Of a stretch of 64,000 nt of DNA, positions 8,988 to 17,702 are shown piece by piece (the stretch's first letter is position 1; the number at the start of each line of letters is the position of its first letter). Location of the stretch: contig NZ_FNQB01000003.1 in NCBI RefSeq assembly GCF_900107455.1, forward strand, positions 1-64,000. The letters are read 5' to 3'. A program made the translations under genes and the position numbers. The notes under the pieces were generated by a model, which was not told the origin of the DNA, made no database searches, and saw nothing but the letters and a program-made list of their open reading frames with translations. Source of the DNA: Asanoa ishikariensis. Lineage in GTDB: Bacteria; Actinomycetota; Actinomycetes; Mycobacteriales; Micromonosporaceae.

Positions 8988-11594
8988 TCAGCGATCCGCC
9001 TGCCAGGACTCGACACCGGATGTCCGGCGCGCAGCGGGTGCGGTGCTGTGCGGCTGATCAGCGAGCGAGTTTCGGCCGGCCCCCAAGCGGTTAGCCGCGG
9101 GTCGGCGCCAGCAGTTCTTCTGCCTCCGCCAAGGCGTGCTCGATGGAGAGGTCGCGGCCACGTCGATCATGGCGGTGAGATCCGCCTCGGCCACGGCTTC
9201 CGTGACTGCGTCAGCGGTTCGCTGTTCCAGTTGGAACACCGACGGCCAGGGAACCAAACCGATGGCGTCGCGGGCTGCGGCGGCCGCGCCGATGAGGCGG
9301 GCGGCGAGTTGGCTATCGCCAGTGTGCAGGGCGAGGGTGCCGAGGGCGCCCACGCATCGGATGAGTCCGTCGACGTGGTCGATGTCGCGATAGCCGTCGA
9401 CGGCTGAGGCTAGGTGCGACCTTGCCGATCCACGGTTGTCAAGCACTAACGCGTCCATGGCCAGGTCGTAGTGCGCTTCGGCGCGAAGGTTTTGGTCGGC
9501 GAGCGCGTCGGCGATCTCGAGGGCGTCGTGGTGACGTTCTACCGCCTCGGCCGCGCGGCCGTCCAGGTTCAGCGATAGGCCATAGTGCGAAAGGACGTAA
9601 CCGGTCACATGCGGGTCGTCTGCCTGTTCCGCCACCAGGAGGGCCTCCGCGAATTCCGCGAGCGCCCGTTCGTGTGCGCCGTGTGGGCGCACGATCGCGC
9701 GGGCCGAGAGAAGCAGGGCCATCCGGGCTGGCGACTCGATCGGCCGGCCGATGGGAATCATCTCGTCGAGTACCTCGGCGGCGGCCGGGAAGTCTCCGTC
9801 GTTGAGCAACCGGCTGGCGGTCAGCCACTGCCGGGCCAGCCGGTCACGCGGCGACCCCGTGTGCGGCAGCGCCTCGATCCGTTGCCAGAGCCCGGACGCC
9901 TGCCGCAGCAGACCGCGGGCCAGCAGCCACACCCAGACGTCGCCGAGTGCGCGCAGCAGTGGGCCGGCATCGTGTCGCGTGCGAGCCAACCATTCCAGCA
10001 CGACCTGCAGGTTCGGTAGCTCGCTGTCGAGCCGTCGCAGGATCAGCTCCCGAGAGCCGAGGCTGGTGTCGGCCGCCCGGAGCACATCGAGGACGTGCTC
10101 GTGCAGCCGGCTCAGGGTGTCGTCCGCGGGGTCCCGGCGGGCGGCGGCGAACCGACGGATCGGTTCGAGAAGCTGGAAACCGCCCTCGCCGTCCATCCGC
10201 TCGACCGGGCTCACCATGCTGCTGTCCAGCAATGTGGACAGGTCGCGAACCGCATCGTCGGCGCCATCGCCGCAGACGGCGACGACACCGTCCACAGTGA
10301 ACGGCGCCGCGAACACCGACAGCCGTGTGAGCAGCCGCCGTGCGGAGCCGGGTAACAGGTCATAGCTCCACGAGACCGTGCCGGTGAGCGTCTGTTGCCG
10401 GTGCGGCAGGTCGACGAAGGCGCCCGGTCGCTCGAGTCGCTCGTACACCTGGGTGAGCATCTGGTCGGGGGTGAGCAGGCGCATCCAGGCCGCCGCGAGC
10501 TCCAACGCCAGTGGCAGGCCACCAAGCCGGCGGCAAAGCTCGGCCAACGCGGACGCATTCTCGGCAGTAAGTTCAAACCCGGGCCGCACATCGCGTACGC
10601 GGTCGACCAGTAGCCGCAGCGCCGCAGGCTGGGCCAGCGCGGACACCCGATGCTCGCGCTCGCCGCGGATCCGCAGGCTCACCCTGCTGGTGACCAGCAG
10701 AGACAGTCGCGGGGTCCGGCGTAGCAGATCGGCCAGGGCGGGCGCCGCGTCCACCACGTGCTCGACGTTGTCGAGCAGGACCAGCAGGTGCCGGCTCGAC
10801 AGTGCCCGTTGGAGCGCGTCGAGCGGACCTTCGTGGCCCTGGCCCACCACGCCCAGCGCGGACGCGATGGCGTCGGGCACGAGCCGGCCGTCGGTGACCG
10901 GGGAAAGGTCGACGAAGGCAACGCCGTCGCGCCAATGTGGCGCGGTGCGTTCCTGCGCGGCCAACGCCAGCCTGGTCTTGCCGATACCGCCGGCGCCGGT
11001 CAGCACCACGAGCCGGCGGTCGCCTGACACGAGGTCGTCAACAATCCGGGCGAGGTCCTCGTCGCGTCCGACCAGGGATGTCGCCGGTGCCGGCGGGATC
11101 GCGACGGCGCGGCCGTCTCGCGGCCCGGCGAACCGTTCCGCGAGTAACGTGGCCAGGTCGGTCAAGATCAGCTCATGGAGCTCATCGGCGTCGGTGAAGC
11201 GCTTGTACGCGGTCTGCCCGCGCGCCCTGATCTCGTCGAGCATCCGGCTCAACGCGGCGTCGCGGCCGGGCGCCGGTGACTTGACGTACAGCAGCCGGGG
11301 CAGCCCCGCTGCCCGCTCGAGCTCGTCCTGCAAGCCAGAGACGATCATCCCCGGACCGACCCATCCGTAGCTGTCTGCGTAGATGCCGACGAAGACGTCG
11401 GACTGCGCCACATAGGCCTGATAGACCGCTTGCGCGGGGTGCGGACGCGCGCCGGACTCGAACATCACGGGAGACAGCCGCAACTGCTCGATCGCAGCCC
11501 GGGCCGCGCGGCGCTCGGCGGCCAGCTCCACCAGAGTCGAGGACACGAAGACCCGCAGCCGATGGTCGGGCGTTCTGATGGCGGGTTCGGCCAT
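8988..11594 (-). CDS. DUF4062-STAND ATPase with TPR-like C-terminus, probably frameshifted at the 3' end
   Basis: Domains in order: DUF4062 (about residues 8-95; RVFVSSTLVEL, then a QSDVFVGIY segment), a linker, an NB-ARC-like ATPase (P-loop GAGGIGKTRLAL near residue 200, Walker B LLVLLDNVE, sensor LVTSRVSL, GLPLALELAAA), a winged helix, then helical TPR-like repeats. It is probably a cytoplasmic sensor or scaffold that oligomerises on ligand binding. The start is set at the ATG at 11594, as in the paralogue at 35855; a GTG at 11630 is possible. The last 50 or so residues are out of character: shifting frame near 9155-9163 gives a natural ending (SIEHALAEAEELLAPTRG) with a stop at 9092. One base appears to be missing. 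Confidence 0.85.
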   Translation of the reverse strand: MAEPAIRTPDHRLRVFVSSTLVELAAERRAARAAIEQLRLSPVMFESGARPHPAQAVYQAYVAQSDVFVGIYADSYGWVGPGMIVSGLQDELERAAGLPRLLYVKSPAPGRDAALSRMLDEIRARGQTAYKRFTDADELHELILTDLATLLAERFAGPRDGRAVAIPPAPATSLVGRDEDLARIVDDLVSGDRRLVVLTGAGGIGKTRLALAAQERTAPHWRDGVAFVDLSPVTDGRLVPDAIASALGVVGQGHEGPLDALQRALSSRHLLVLLDNVEHVVDAAPALADLLRRTPRLSLLVTSRVSLRIRGEREHRVSALAQPAALRLLVDRVRDVRPGFELTAENASALAELCRRLGGLPLALELAAAWMRLLTPDQMLTQVYERLERPGAFVDLPHRQQTLTGTVSWSYDLLPGSARRLLTRLSVFAAPFTVDGVVAVCGDGADDAVRDLSTLLDSSMVSPVERMDGEGGFQLLEPIRRFAAARRDPADDTLSRLHEHVLDVLRAADTSLGSRELILRRLDSELPNLQVVLEWLARTRHDAGPLLRALGDVWVWLLARGLLRQASGLWQRIEALPHTGSPRDRLARQWLTASRLLNDGDFPAAAEVLDEMIPIGRPIESPARMALLLSARAIVRPHGAHERALAEFAEALLVAEQADDPHVTGYVLSHYGLSLNLDGRAAEAVERHHDALEIADALADQNLRAEAHYDLAMDALVLDNRGSARSHLASAVDGYRDIDHVDGLIRCVGALGTLALHTGDSQLAARLIGAAAAARDAIGLVPWPSVFQLEQRTADAVTEAVAEADLTAMIDVAATSPSSTPWRRQKNCWRRPAANRLGAGRNSLADQPHSTAPAARRTSGVESWQADR

Positions 11595-11703
11595 ACCGCC
11601 AAGACTTACCACGAAATCCTGAACCGACACATCGAGGCGCGGGTGTGTGTCGCCGATTGACCCGCCATGCTGCGGCGTCGTTTGGACGTACCTGGACCGG
11701 AGA

Positions 11704-13926
11704 TCAGGATGGGTTGGCGCCGGCCGTAGACGCGGTGGCGGCTTCTCGGTAAAGCGGATGGCTCGATCCGAACTCCCGCTCGCAGTCTGCTGTCAGTGAT
11801 CGTCCTTCGGCGAAGGCCAACGCCGGTTGGCCGAGCCGAGCAAGGAACCGAACGAGCGTCAGCCTCGTCGCCAGCGTGCGCCGGTGATGTGCTCCGAACA
11901 GTTCGGTTCGCTCGTTGACCAAAATGCGCAGCATGGTGACGGCAGCTTCGAGATGACCTAGTTCTCCGGTGGCCAAAGCGATCTGATGCCTGGTGCTGAA
12001 GATCCGTGGTTGCCTGCTGCCCAAGATTCGTATCTGGTCGTGGAGGAGCTCCTCGAACAGTCGCAGGGATCGACCCCAGTCGCCAGACGCGCCGATCGCT
12101 CGGGCGTGCTCGTACCTAATGTTGAGCCCTTGCGGCACGTCCTGGCCATACACGTTGGTCATGCGGAGGGCCAGGTCCTGTAACTCTTCGGCAGCCACGG
12201 TGGGTTGGCCGTTGTTATTGGTGTACTGGGCGGCGTGCATGCAGGTGACCATTGTTTGTAGATAGTCACGGCCCCACAACCTTTCCTGATCTGCGGCAAC
12301 GGCGCGCAGGAGGTCGACGGCTGCTCGGGGATCTCCCGCCTCGCCGGTGTACCGGCCGTGGAACTCACGCGATGCCAGAGTCGATGGATGGTCTGGGCCG
12401 AGCGTCCTGGCGCGGTCGGGGATGATCTCGTTAAGTTCTGCGACGGCCGAGCCGAAGTGCCCGGCTTCGCCAAGGTAGCGCGCGTAGTCGTGGCGGGCCT
12501 GCAAGGTGTCTGGGTGGTCTGCTCCCGCCGCCGCTGTTCGTTGGCCGATGATCCCGTGAAGTTCGGCGGCGGCCTCGGCGGAACGGCCGGAGTTGCCTAA
12601 CGCGATGACGTAGGCATAGGAGGCGTTGGCCACCTGGTGGTCACGCGCCCGGGCAAGCGCGACCATGCCGTGGTCGGAACGGTGGAGGTCGACGGCGGCC
12701 CAGCCGATGTCGTAGGCCTCCACGGGTTCGACTTCGCTGAGGAGTGCGGTCCAGCTCGAGTCTGGGACGGCGGGTAGGAATGGTTGGTCGATCAAGTAGT
12801 CGAACGCAAGAAAGCCGCCGTCGGCGTGGGCGGTCAAGAGGCTGCTTGATCCATAAACGGTGGTCGTCGCCCATGCGAGTGCTTCATCCATGGTCTCGAG
12901 CCGTCGATCCCGGTCCTCTGTCTGAAGGTAGAACACGTGGAGCTTGCCGAGCAGGTCGGTGGAGACGGGTCGGTGGAGACCCATGCGGCGGCAATCGACC
13001 GCGGCGGAGACGATCGCCGCACCACGTCGATGCTCGCCCATCGTGGCCGCCCGTCTCCAGTCCAAGACCAGCTCGGGCCCTGCGGCGAGCATCTCCGCTA
13101 CGCCGTACCGGCTCGACATTTTCGCGGCATTTGTAACGCGCGGGTCCGCAGCCGATGAAGCACGCCGCAGTTCCTTGTCCGACCATGAGCGCGGGACCTC
13201 TATTGGATTCTCGGCCATGAGAAGGACCGCTCGACCTGCCCGCCAGGTTGCCGCATCGGAGACGTCCCGGTTGCGGGCGCTGTATCGGTCGTACTCGCGG
13301 ACGCGCATCGTGGCGAGCACAACGACCTCTGCGCGCCGCCGGCCGTCGAGCAACGACCGCAGCGTCTCGACCGTCAGGCCGGTCGCGCCGAGGTACAGGT
13401 CGAGCTCGTCCAACCAGATCACATGACGCCGTCTCGGCGAGATCGCTTCGCGCAGGTCGTGAAACTCGTCGCCGGGCGAGGGAATGTGGAGCCAGTAGTC
13501 AGGCAGTGCCACGCGCATCGCCTCGTACGCCAGGCGAGACTTGCCGGCGGTCGATTCACCGACGATCAGGACAAAGCCCCCGCCGAGCAGTCGTTCGCAG
13601 ACAGACTCCATGACATCCCGGGCCACGAACTCCGGAACACGATCCGGGCGACCCTCCATTTTGGCGACTTGGGCTGGGTGGACGCCGAGGCTCAGTGGAT
13701 CACTGGCGTCGCGCACCCGGATCCGTGGCAGTCTCCGGGGCCGACGGCGGCCTCGCCGCACGACATCCTCAGCCCGAGCAGTGAACGCGCCAGCTAGCCC
13801 AGCACCTGCGGCCGTGGCTACCGCCGCGGCCCAGGGAGGAAGCCATGCCGCCGCGACAACGCCCACGCCGCCACCAGCTCCCGCAGCTGCCGCCAACGTG
13901 AGCCATGCCCGCAAATGTCGAGCCAT
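11704..13926 (-). CDS. Membrane-anchored P-loop (STAND-like) NTPase with TPR repeats, 740 aa
   Basis: Two hydrophobic helices (residues about 10-30 and 32-50) anchor the N-terminus. A P-loop GESTAGKS (residues 123-130) and a Walker B VIWLDELDLY (169-178) define an NTPase domain. The C-terminal half is a superhelix of TPR units in which the HPDTLxxR / HPSTLxxR phrase and RYTGEAGD-type turns recur from about residue 460. This layout fits signal-transducing STAND proteins placed at the membrane. The gene lies 110 bp upstream of, and in line with, the DUF4062-STAND gene, so they may be co-transcribed. The TPR style resembles the caspase protein at the right edge of the window. The ligand is unknown. 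Confidence 0.78.
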   Translation of the reverse strand: MARHLRAWLTLAAAAGAGGGVGVVAAAWLPPWAAAVATAAGAGLAGAFTARAEDVVRRGRRRPRRLPRIRVRDASDPLSLGVHPAQVAKMEGRPDRVPEFVARDVMESVCERLLGGGFVLIVGESTAGKSRLAYEAMRVALPDYWLHIPSPGDEFHDLREAISPRRRHVIWLDELDLYLGATGLTVETLRSLLDGRRRAEVVVLATMRVREYDRYSARNRDVSDAATWRAGRAVLLMAENPIEVPRSWSDKELRRASSAADPRVTNAAKMSSRYGVAEMLAAGPELVLDWRRAATMGEHRRGAAIVSAAVDCRRMGLHRPVSTDLLGKLHVFYLQTEDRDRRLETMDEALAWATTTVYGSSSLLTAHADGGFLAFDYLIDQPFLPAVPDSSWTALLSEVEPVEAYDIGWAAVDLHRSDHGMVALARARDHQVANASYAYVIALGNSGRSAEAAAELHGIIGQRTAAAGADHPDTLQARHDYARYLGEAGHFGSAVAELNEIIPDRARTLGPDHPSTLASREFHGRYTGEAGDPRAAVDLLRAVAADQERLWGRDYLQTMVTCMHAAQYTNNNGQPTVAAEELQDLALRMTNVYGQDVPQGLNIRYEHARAIGASGDWGRSLRLFEELLHDQIRILGSRQPRIFSTRHQIALATGELGHLEAAVTMLRILVNERTELFGAHHRRTLATRLTLVRFLARLGQPALAFAEGRSLTADCEREFGSSHPLYREAATASTAGANPS

Positions 13927-14330: not shown

Positions 14331-15890
14331 ATGGGCAGGCGTCGACTCTTGCACACACTGCCGCCAGCCGAACGGCAGCAGCTGGCCGAGTTGATCGCCA
14401 GCTACGTCAACGACACCATCGTGGAGATCCATCGCGCGGGACACAGTTGGCATCACGCCGGCAGCGAACAGTTCTTCATTGGGCACCGCGGATACCTCGA
14501 CGGGCTCGAGTCCTACCTGCGGCAATCGGGAAACGCCCGGTTCGTGCCGCTGCCTGCGTGGGATCCCGACAGTTCGATCCCGGCGGAGTTCACCGCCGTC
14601 AAGCCAACCGACCGAGGTGCCACACGTCCAGCGTTGGCCGACCTCAGCCCCGGCCTCCCGAAGCCGGCGAACCTGGCCACTGGCGCGGTATGCGCGATCG
14701 CTACCGTGCGGGAGCTCTCGTTGTTGACCCAGCCCTGGCACGGCGCGGTGCACGGCCAGATCGGCGGCACGATGGCCGACGTGAACGTTTCGCCGGCAGC
14801 GCTAATTTTCTGGTGCTGGCACGCGTTCATCGACGACATCTACGACGACTGGCTGTCGTGCACCATCGAGGCGGTGGGCCGGCCTTGGGGCTACCCAGGC
14901 GGTGCGACCGCACGGGTCGTCTTCCGCGGCCACGACGCCCACCTGCACGAGATCGCATTGACGCAACAGTGGATGCACTTCGACATGACCGGCGTGCCTG
15001 GGGCGGTCCCACCGGCTGGCAACCCGATGGGTTATGCCAGCAACGTTCCGCGCGTTGTCTATCGCGGTGATGACGGCCGGCTCCACGAACTCGCGATCTA
15101 CCCGGAGACGGGCGCTTGGGGCGATTTCGACATGACGGGTGTGCCTGGGGCGGTCCCGCCGGCCGGGGATCCGATGGGCTACGTGTTCGAGGTACCCCGG
15201 GTCGTCTACCGCGGTGATGACGGCCGCCTTCACGAACTCGCGATTTACCCGGAGACGGGAGCCTGGGGCGACTTCGACATGACCGGCGTGCCTGGGGCGG
15301 TCCCGCCGGCTGGCAACCCGATGGGTTATGCCAGCAACGTTCCGCGCGTCGTCTACCGCGGTGATGACGGGCATCTCCACGAGCTCGCGATCTACCCGGA
15401 GACGGGCGCTTGGGGCGATTTCGACATGACGGGTGTGCCTGGGGCGGTCCCGCCGGCCGGGGATCCGATGGGCTACGTGTTCGAGGTACCCCGGGTCGTC
15501 TACCGCGGTGATGACGGACGGCTCCACGAACTCGCGATTTACCCCGAGACGGGAACCTGGGGCGACTTCGACATGACGCGTGTGCCTGGGGCGGTCCCAC
15601 CGGCTGGCAACCCGATGGGTTATGCCAGCAACGTTCCGCGCGTCGTCTACCGCGGTGATGACGGGCATCTCCACGAGCTCGCGATCTACCCCGAGACGGG
15701 AACCTGGGGCGACTTCGACATGACGGGTGTGCCTGGCGCGGTCCCACCCGCCGGAGACCCGATGGGCTACGTCGACGCCAATGGCACCGCCCGCGTTGTC
15801 TACCAGGGCACAGATAACCACCTGCACGAGCTGTGGCTAGCTGACAAGTGGTACCACTTCGACATGACCGTCACGACAAGACGCGACTGA
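14331..15890 (+). CDS. Tyrosinase-like domain fused to a seven-bladed lectin-type propeller, 519 aa
   Basis: Residues about 1-180 resemble the di-copper core of tyrosinases. A copper-A helix has His38/His42 and His52 in FFIGHRGYL. A copper-B region has His137 and His141 (WHGAVHG), then IGGTM, SPAALIFW and His164 in CWHAFID. Residues about 186-519 are seven repeats of 49 or so residues of the form RVVYRGDDGRLHEL ... WGDFDMTGVPGAVPPAG, the blade pattern of PLL-type bacterial lectins. No signal peptide is visible, so export, if any, needs another route. Predicted role: an o-diphenol or tyrosine oxidase targeted to glycans. The copper chemistry is inferred from the ligands only. Confidence 0.75.
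   Translation: MGRRRLLHTLPPAERQQLAELIASYVNDTIVEIHRAGHSWHHAGSEQFFIGHRGYLDGLESYLRQSGNARFVPLPAWDPDSSIPAEFTAVKPTDRGATRPALADLSPGLPKPANLATGAVCAIATVRELSLLTQPWHGAVHGQIGGTMADVNVSPAALIFWCWHAFIDDIYDDWLSCTIEAVGRPWGYPGGATARVVFRGHDAHLHEIALTQQWMHFDMTGVPGAVPPAGNPMGYASNVPRVVYRGDDGRLHELAIYPETGAWGDFDMTGVPGAVPPAGDPMGYVFEVPRVVYRGDDGRLHELAIYPETGAWGDFDMTGVPGAVPPAGNPMGYASNVPRVVYRGDDGHLHELAIYPETGAWGDFDMTGVPGAVPPAGDPMGYVFEVPRVVYRGDDGRLHELAIYPETGTWGDFDMTRVPGAVPPAGNPMGYASNVPRVVYRGDDGHLHELAIYPETGTWGDFDMTGVPGAVPPAGDPMGYVDANGTARVVYQGTDNHLHELWLADKWYHFDMTVTTRRD
14886..15887 (+). repeat. Tandem coding repeat: 147-bp blades in 294-bp higher-order units
   Basis: Seven blades lie inside the tyrosinase-propeller gene. Blades 2-6 are each exactly 147 bp (starts at 15036, 15183, 15330, 15477, 15624). 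They alternate between two types, starting with ASNVP (15036, 15330, 15624) or VFEVP (15183, 15477), so the DNA repeats with a 294-bp period and very high identity. Blades 1 and 7 are diverged. This indicates recent duplication of a two-blade unit. Confidence 0.9.
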
Positions 15891-17111: not shown

Positions 17112-17702
17112 GTGCGTAGGAACAAGGCAGTCCGCCGGGCGGTGACCGTCGTCCTGGCGGCCGCCGCGACCGTGGTCGCGACCCAGGCCCCCGCGCAGGC
17201 GGCACCGGTGATCGTGAAGACCACCCCGCTCATCAACCTGAACACCTACGAGTTGGGCAAGACCAAGGTGATGGCGGTCCTGAACGCCTCGACCGGGAAC
17301 ACCGCGCCGATGATCCAGGCGCCCTGGACCGACGACGCGCCGGACAACGACTGGATCGTGGTGGAGAAGGAGTCCACCGCCAACGTCTACCGGCTCAAGC
17401 CGCTGCACACGTATTCGCCTGACGGCAACGTGCACAACGACAAGTGCCTCGCGGTGAAGAACGCCGACGGCGGGAACAACATCCCGATCGTCAACGCGAC
17501 CTGCACGTACGACGACACCGACAACGACGTCTGGTTCATGGAGTGGATCAAGCTCGACGCGCAGCGGGGCACCTACCAGATCCGCAACCAGATGACCAAG
17601 AAGTGCATCACCACCAAGAACGCGGCCACCGACAACGCCCCGCTGATCACTTTCGACTGCAACGGCGGCCACAACGGCTACTGGAACTACGGACAGGTGT
17701 GA
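17112..17702 (+). CDS. Secreted ricin-type beta-trefoil lectin, 196 aa
   Basis: GTG start 9 bases after AAGGAGA. Sec signal peptide residues 1-31, cut after AQA. The mature protein is a single beta-trefoil-like domain with lectin phrases KCLAVKNADGGNN and KCITTKNAATDN, each followed by a Cys-containing strand (NATCTY, TFDCNGG) as in ricin-type carbohydrate-binding domains. It probably binds extracellular glycans; no catalytic domain is present. Residues from about 55 onward are highly similar to the gene at 24609, so the two are paralogues. It lies 79 bp upstream of the ECF sigma/ABC operon and may be transcribed with it. Confidence 0.8.
   Translation: MRRNKAVRRAVTVVLAAAATVVATQAPAQAAPVIVKTTPLINLNTYELGKTKVMAVLNASTGNTAPMIQAPWTDDAPDNDWIVVEKESTANVYRLKPLHTYSPDGNVHNDKCLAVKNADGGNNIPIVNATCTYDDTDNDVWFMEWIKLDAQRGTYQIRNQMTKKCITTKNAATDNAPLITFDCNGGHNGYWNYGQV

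Follow-up and report, generated by a model that had tools for sequence, protein, structure and literature searches.

A compact tyrosinase-type copper domain joined to seven lectin-like repeats in one chain of Asanoa ishikariensis

Introduction

What would a tyrosinase-type copper domain do on the same chain as a set of lectin-like repeats? A gene of the actinomycete Asanoa ishikariensis (Micromonosporaceae) raises this question. Bacterial tyrosinases appear, in the excerpts of a review available to us, as a central domain that stands alone or is accompanied by a signal and a C-terminal domain; a lectin-like protein is named there only as a separate partner of a mushroom enzyme (PMC11608171). 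That mushroom system, AbPPO3 with AbMtaL, pairs an oxidase with a lectin-like partner on two separate chains (PMC11608171), whereas the Asanoa protein is one fused chain. In the open-licence literature searched, we found no tyrosinase described as fused to a lectin propeller.

The gene lies in a window of 64,000 nucleotides (the whole stretch of DNA analysed, positions 1 to 64,000 of contig NZ_FNQB01000003.1), for which a sequence-only reading had proposed a di-copper domain followed by seven lectin blades. We find that the protein combines known domains in a new way and does not represent a new kind of system. Judging from sequence comparison, its head falls within a compact branch of the type-3 copper family that is rarely seen.

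Gene and features

The features referred to in the text are the following (positions within the window).

14331..15890, + strand: whole gene, 519 amino acids plus stop (frame without internal stop; codon-position GC)
14331..14870, + strand: compact tyrosinase-type (type-3 copper) domain, residues 1-180 (PF00264, fold matches, nine-member family)
14430..14432, + strand: H34, putative CuA ligand 1 (His in 9/9 members)
14454..14456, + strand: H42, putative CuA ligand 2 (His in 8/9 members)
14484..14486, + strand: H52, putative CuA ligand 3 (His in 9/9 members)
14739..14741, + strand: H137, putative CuB ligand 1, followed by Gly138 (His in 8/9 members; aligned with the CuB region of Streptomyces tyrosinase)
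14751..14753, + strand: H141, putative CuB ligand 2 (His in 8/9 members)
14820..14822, + strand: H164, putative CuB ligand 3, with Trp just before it (His in 8/9 members)
14913..15887, + strand: seven lectin-like repeats (blades 1-7), residues 195-519 (repeat starts; homology to L066 and L069)
15051-15344 and 15345-15638, + strand: two copies of a 294-bp two-blade unit (DNA identity of blades)
within 8988-13926, - strand: two large genes, one with DUF4062/NB-ARC and one TPR gene with weak STAND matches
17112-17702: gene for a ricin-type beta-trefoil lectin (PF14200, E 2.4e-11)

The GC content of the frame by codon position (0.647/0.516/0.832 over the copper domain, 0.724/0.491/0.785 over the repeats) is close to that of most neighbouring genes and unlike that of an overlapping + strand frame. 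Upstream of the ATG the open frame holds just 3 codons more (522 versus 519), and no hydrophobic leader is visible by eye in the 519-residue protein, so the missing signal peptide on which the sequence-only reading had remarked is real; no export route was found. By eye, however, no leader is evident either in several other members of the subfamily described below (L003, L008, L009, L043 and L044). In the 9.09-Mb genome this is the only gene with a tyrosinase domain (E 0.01) and the only one with these repeats (E 0.001).

A compact tyrosinase-type domain

The first ~180 residues match PF00264 with E 1.4e-11 and 45.7 bits, twice the curated cut-off of 22.6, and their tyrosinase-type identity is beyond chance. 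The NCBIfam model for Streptomyces-type tyrosinase (MelC2, NF047834) gives 23.9 bits, far below its equivalog cut-off of 450. Used singly in phmmer against solved tyrosinases, the protein yields weak matches (best E 0.0018). A profile of six subfamily members, the protein itself included, reaches molluscan hemocyanins, which are multi-domain chains, at a best E of 2.6e-55 and bacterial tyrosinases at a best E of 1.3e-12; hemocyanins come out on top in part because their chains hold up to eight domains.

Comparison of an AlphaFold model of residues 1-180 with solved structures gave a consistent picture: the first 18 matches listed are all tyrosinase- or hemocyanin-family proteins, with Z from 10.7 to 7.3, and the nineteenth drops to Z 3.5. 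At a model confidence of pLDDT 57-82 by ten-residue block, the matches listed thus point to the four-helix type-3 copper fold. Matches under Z 4, which include TcdA1 and a fucose lectin of Kordia (Z 3.0), were taken as noise. The tyrosinases of Priestia megaterium (BmTYR) and Streptomyces (MelC2) share the predicted fold (Z 10.7 and 10.2) and the arrangement of CuA and CuB histidines; compared with them, however, the copper domain studied here is about 100 residues shorter and lacks the seventh histidine. The proposal of a tyrosinase-like di-copper domain at the N-terminus is therefore borne out, by the PF00264 match and by a predicted fold close to that of a bacterial tyrosinase.

Putative copper ligands

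The conservation pattern in an alignment of nine compact members leads us to name H34/H42/H52 and H137/H141/H164 as putative copper ligands. All six are kept in 8/9 members, the exception at H42, H137, H141 and H164 being each time the Ignavibacteria protein L005. Five of these residues had been proposed before, in the sets His38/His42/His52 and His137/His141/His164. His38 has to give way to H34 as the candidate CuA ligand: its column holds a gap in seven members and Pro in one, and we rejected it on that conservation.

In general the CuA site reads H-xn-H-x8-H and the CuB site H-x3-H-xn-H; in the CuA of bacterial enzymes n is in some cases below 10 (excerpts of PMC11608171). The six-histidine motif of the type-3 copper family is present here, though with x9 in place of x8 between H42 and H52; the CuA site reads H-x7-H-x9-H, and several relatives have H-x4-H-x8-H. 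The distance from HisA3 to HisB1 is 85 positions in 6/7 compact sequences matched by our spacing script and 98 in L004. Among 21 other tyrosinase-like loci it is 87 for one protein seen twice (L022 and L045) and 100-125 in the remaining 19. With this script L007 and L026 were tried and remained unmatched, L005 was left out, and 21 of the 22 other loci tried were matched.

Two further positions bear on the chemistry. A seventh histidine precedes HisB3 in polyphenol oxidases of known structure except insect enzymes and PvdP, according to the same review excerpts (PMC11608171). Here that place is taken by Trp163; the 7 compact sequences matched have Trp or Phe there, and 20/21 of the other sequences matched have His. 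The seventh histidine is not a required ligand. HisB1 is followed by Gly138, and no member of the compact subfamily has Asn there. Some tyrosinases have Gly or Ala after HisB1, and in a walnut enzyme monophenolase activity is not lost when the Asn is replaced (excerpts of PMC6997208). We therefore predict diphenol oxidation; from sequence, monophenol hydroxylation is the less certain of the two activities.

E128, which lies nine residues ahead of H137, may be the counterpart of the 'water keeper' glutamate of other enzymes; the position is not conserved in the subfamily, with Glu in 2/9 members. Cys is found at C177 in 9/9 compact members and at C121 in all but L005 (alignment, by eye), and a C121-C177 disulfide is possible.

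A rarely seen subfamily

Nine compact-subfamily sequences were found in all, the Asanoa protein included, one of them on an archaeal plasmid. A scan of genome contigs, described as covering 84,980 species, returned three relatives, in metagenome-assembled genomes of Nitrosospira (50% identity over the best segment), Saprospiraceae and Ignavibacteria (35% each). A plasmid search added one relative of the copper domain in the archaeon Halomarina (32% identity), and profile searches added four stand-alone proteins of 189-207 residues from one family of the same phylum. A match of at least 187 bits defines a compact member, and all other matches reach at most 61 bits.

By this definition, compact members are rare in the genome sets searched, which are samples at each rank. 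They occur in 3/396 genomes of the phylum, that of A. ishikariensis included (any match at E 1e-6: 12/396; 8 candidates per genome scored), and in 4/299 genomes of the class to which G034 belongs, two of which had been found before (any match at E 1e-8: 15/299; 11 candidates per genome scored). Within the order, the A. ishikariensis genome is alone among 397 in having one (any match at E 1e-8: 8/397; 8 candidates per genome scored), and the five congeners searched yielded no match at E 0.001.

The lectin-like repeats are carried by the Asanoa copper domain only (0/8 other compact members). Of the others, four stand alone, two have beta/gamma-crystallin domains, one ends in a type IX sorting tail and one has a DUF3892 domain at its N-terminus. 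The Nitrosospira protein L003 shares the N-terminal domain (48% identity in alignment A1) and continues with beta/gamma-crystallin domains (PF00030) instead of a propeller. The Ignavibacteria protein L005 (33% identity in alignment A1) likewise continues with PF00030, but has lost four histidines, and it gives no PF00264 match at E 0.01. In L005:288-1856 the domain is kept ahead of three crystallin domains with four of the six histidine ligands gone; it is probably a pseudoenzyme, judging from these residues, and suggests that the copper-domain fold can persist without copper. The type IX secretion tail of L004 points to an extracellular action of the copper domain, at least in that lineage.

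On the Halomarina plasmid, L007:3023-4651 encodes an N-terminal DUF3892 and a C-terminal compact tyrosinase domain with six histidines. The stand-alone members each have a related neighbour gene of ~150-190 codons (L008:731-1291, L009:887-1345, L043:3-536 and L044:1424-1888); these neighbours are 39-41% identical to the first of them, and the one tested has no Pfam match. Their products are possibly functional partners of the stand-alone domains.

Seven lectin-like repeats

The motif RVV[FY] opens seven repeats of ~49 residues, at residues 195, 241, 290, 339, 388, 437 and 488, and the same array shows up at the nucleotide level as a tandem repeat of 147/294 bp. DNA identity reaches 95.9% between blades 2 and 4 and 93.9% between blades 3 and 5, compared with 83.0% between blades 2 and 3, which argues for a recent duplication of a 294-bp two-blade unit. 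After this duplication the total still stands at seven, as a closed ring would need. AlphaFold models of the repeats, built from four sequences or alone, have pLDDT of ~24-46 by block and do not resolve a propeller.

Seven repeats had been proposed, and seven there are; their assignment to the PLL type did not hold. PF03984 (DUF346) matches neither the protein at E 1, nor the seven single blades at E 10, nor the gene at E 10, even though the PLL lectins of Photorhabdus, which belong to DUF346, have seven repeats of similar length. The relative L068 comes below the cut-off of this model (E 0.048). More generally, no Pfam or NCBIfam family matches the Asanoa repeats above cut-off, and PF07938, NF052349 and NF052348 give no match to them. 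Short matches below cut-off to XPD_arch (Pfam) and PRK10257.1 (NCBIfam) were discounted. A blade profile found nothing credible among solved structures (best E 0.69, to RNA polymerase).

Relatives of the repeats were found close to home. In a sample of 340 genomes of the same family, six others gave matches and five of these were accepted (6 candidates per genome scored); the sixth, G1101 (E 1.3e-5), was dropped as a match in a repeat-rich protein that by eye is of another type. At E 1e-6, 296 genomes of the phylum gave none, and neither did 246 searched at E 0.001 (28 candidates per genome scored). The repeats lie behind an astacin (PF01400, E 1.1e-49) in L066, whose repeats are 48% identical to those of Asanoa, behind a matrixin in L070, behind a VWA plus endonuclease/phosphatase protein in L067, and behind an N-terminal half that Pfam leaves unclassified in L068. 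Only L069 consists of stand-alone repeats, 35% identical to the Asanoa repeats over most of their length. PLL-like propellers had been said to stand alone; for this type that does not hold, the repeats being the C-terminal part of a larger protein in 4/5 accepted relatives. L066:1176-3023 scores just above the cut-off of NCBIfam LegP (306.9 versus 300 bits) and has no evident leader.

The lectin kinship runs through L069, which matches Fungal_lectin (PF07938) with 38.3 bits against a cut-off of 25.3; L067 reaches 24.4 bits across its repeats, just under that cut-off. L069 also matches the models for BP39L and beta-propeller lectins (NF052349 and NF052348) with E 3.3e-12 and 2.2e-11, both below cut-off, and L068 matches them more weakly. 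Against solved structures L069 itself gave no match at E 1, and a profile of five such repeat domains placed fucose lectins first, weakly (E 0.005 to 0.02). The blades of Asanoa would accordingly stand nearer to BP39L and the fungal fucose lectins than to PLL by one transitive step, the repeat type being shared through the intermediate L069 only. Unlike those lectins, the Asanoa repeats are fused to an oxidase domain, and the models of that group miss them directly. The domain, profile and fold searches, with the homology of the repeats to the lectin-matching L069, nonetheless uphold the core of the sequence-only reading, a di-copper domain and lectin-like repeats in one chain.

Genomic setting and origin

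The gene appears to lie within a variable stretch. For ~11.6-16.06 kb no match was listed in five congeners at E 1e-20 (40 of ~950 candidates per genome scored), and the flanking pieces match scattered places in the congeners. In such a seemingly variable stretch, the gene may have been gained or lost recently, by the time scale of the genus. Another neighbouring gene has a weak LRR match, and no neighbouring gene points to phenol chemistry.

Several origins were considered and rejected. Searches of 50,697 phage records gave no match, and viral contigs held no relative of the copper domain or the repeats. PHROGs matches to the repeats (E 0.0003 to 0.006) cover 19-34 residues and were discounted. 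On plasmids, one relative was found, that of the copper domain in Halomarina at 32% identity; the L066 repeats had no plasmid match at E 0.001, and a Streptomyces plasmid match to the repeats (E 3e-4) was set aside as a transglycosylase with other repeats. A contractile-injection route was dismissed, PF04984 (tail sheath) being unmatched in the genome at E 0.001, as was anti-phage defence, with no PADLOC match for the protein and three neighbours.

Discussion

We propose, with confidence that is evenly poised, that the protein is a compact type-3 copper oxidase with a lectin-like, probably seven-bladed propeller, that is, an enzyme held on glycans. Two copper ions on H34/H42/H52 and H137/H141/H164 would bind oxygen, and the centre would oxidise o-diphenols or similar aromatics to quinones. 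The propeller, a borrowed module for glycan binding, would keep the enzyme on a sugar-coated surface, where the quinones would arise and crosslink or damage that surface. The plant or fungal walls named in the sequence-only reading may be such a surface. Copper binding and catalysis are inferred, as are the propeller fold of this copy, its binding to glycans and action outside the cell. The recurrence of the module behind an astacin, a matrixin and a VWA-plus-nuclease-like protein is what one would expect of a targeting module. Counted against this proposal are the missing leader, repeats that match no lectin model themselves, the absent seventh histidine and the loss of ligands in L005.

Two of these points would suit a protein that never leaves the cell, an intracellular phenol or aminophenol oxidase in which the repeats serve as a scaffold, an oligomerisation surface or a lid and are not a lectin: there is no leader, and lectin models do not match its own repeats. 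In addition, many tyrosinases have their active site covered by a C-terminal domain or a caddie, as the excerpts of two sources describe (PMC11608171, PMC10526336). Four subfamily members nevertheless stand alone without any lid, and the same repeat module is found on unrelated enzymes, with one copy that matches lectin models; we consider such an intracellular role unlikely, if worth keeping in view. It is improbable, in our assessment, that the copper site is no phenol oxidase at all but is either decaying or, like that of hemocyanin, takes up oxygen or copper without turnover. The first place of hemocyanins in the subfamily-profile scores (due in part to up to eight domains per chain), the missing seventh histidine, the Gly after HisB1 and the four ligands lost from L005 all fit that idea, but the six putative ligands are all present in this protein and in 8/9 members.

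A role in antagonism or defence, with repeats that bind competitor cells and a copper domain that makes toxic quinones on them, seems very doubtful to us. The gene does lie in the ~11.6-16.06 kb stretch without a listed congener match (E 1e-20; 40 candidates per genome, five congeners), and propeller lectins aim the umbrella particles of Streptomyces at other cells (excerpts of PMC13274773). The UmbA propellers in those excerpts are, however, 5- and 6-bladed (PMC13274773), PADLOC matched neither the protein nor three neighbours, and the genome lacks the PF04984 tail sheath.

Beyond the single protein, one may imagine that this actinobacterial family has a class of leaderless 'enzyme plus lectin-propeller' proteins, with one kind of propeller that would carry different catalytic heads, here a minimal di-copper oxidase and in a relative an astacin, to a sugar-coated target cell; the copper head of ~180 residues would be among the smallest type-3 copper catalysts. 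We regard this as a long shot.

If the copper domain is active, ~180 residues would suffice for a type-3 copper centre without a lid, a thioether cysteine or a seventh histidine, and the compact domain would be a simple test bed for the residues that set oxygen carriers, diphenolases and monophenolases apart. The fusion itself would amount to a naturally occurring phenol oxidase that a modular lectin directs to glycans, an arrangement otherwise noted here only as the two chains of the mushroom.
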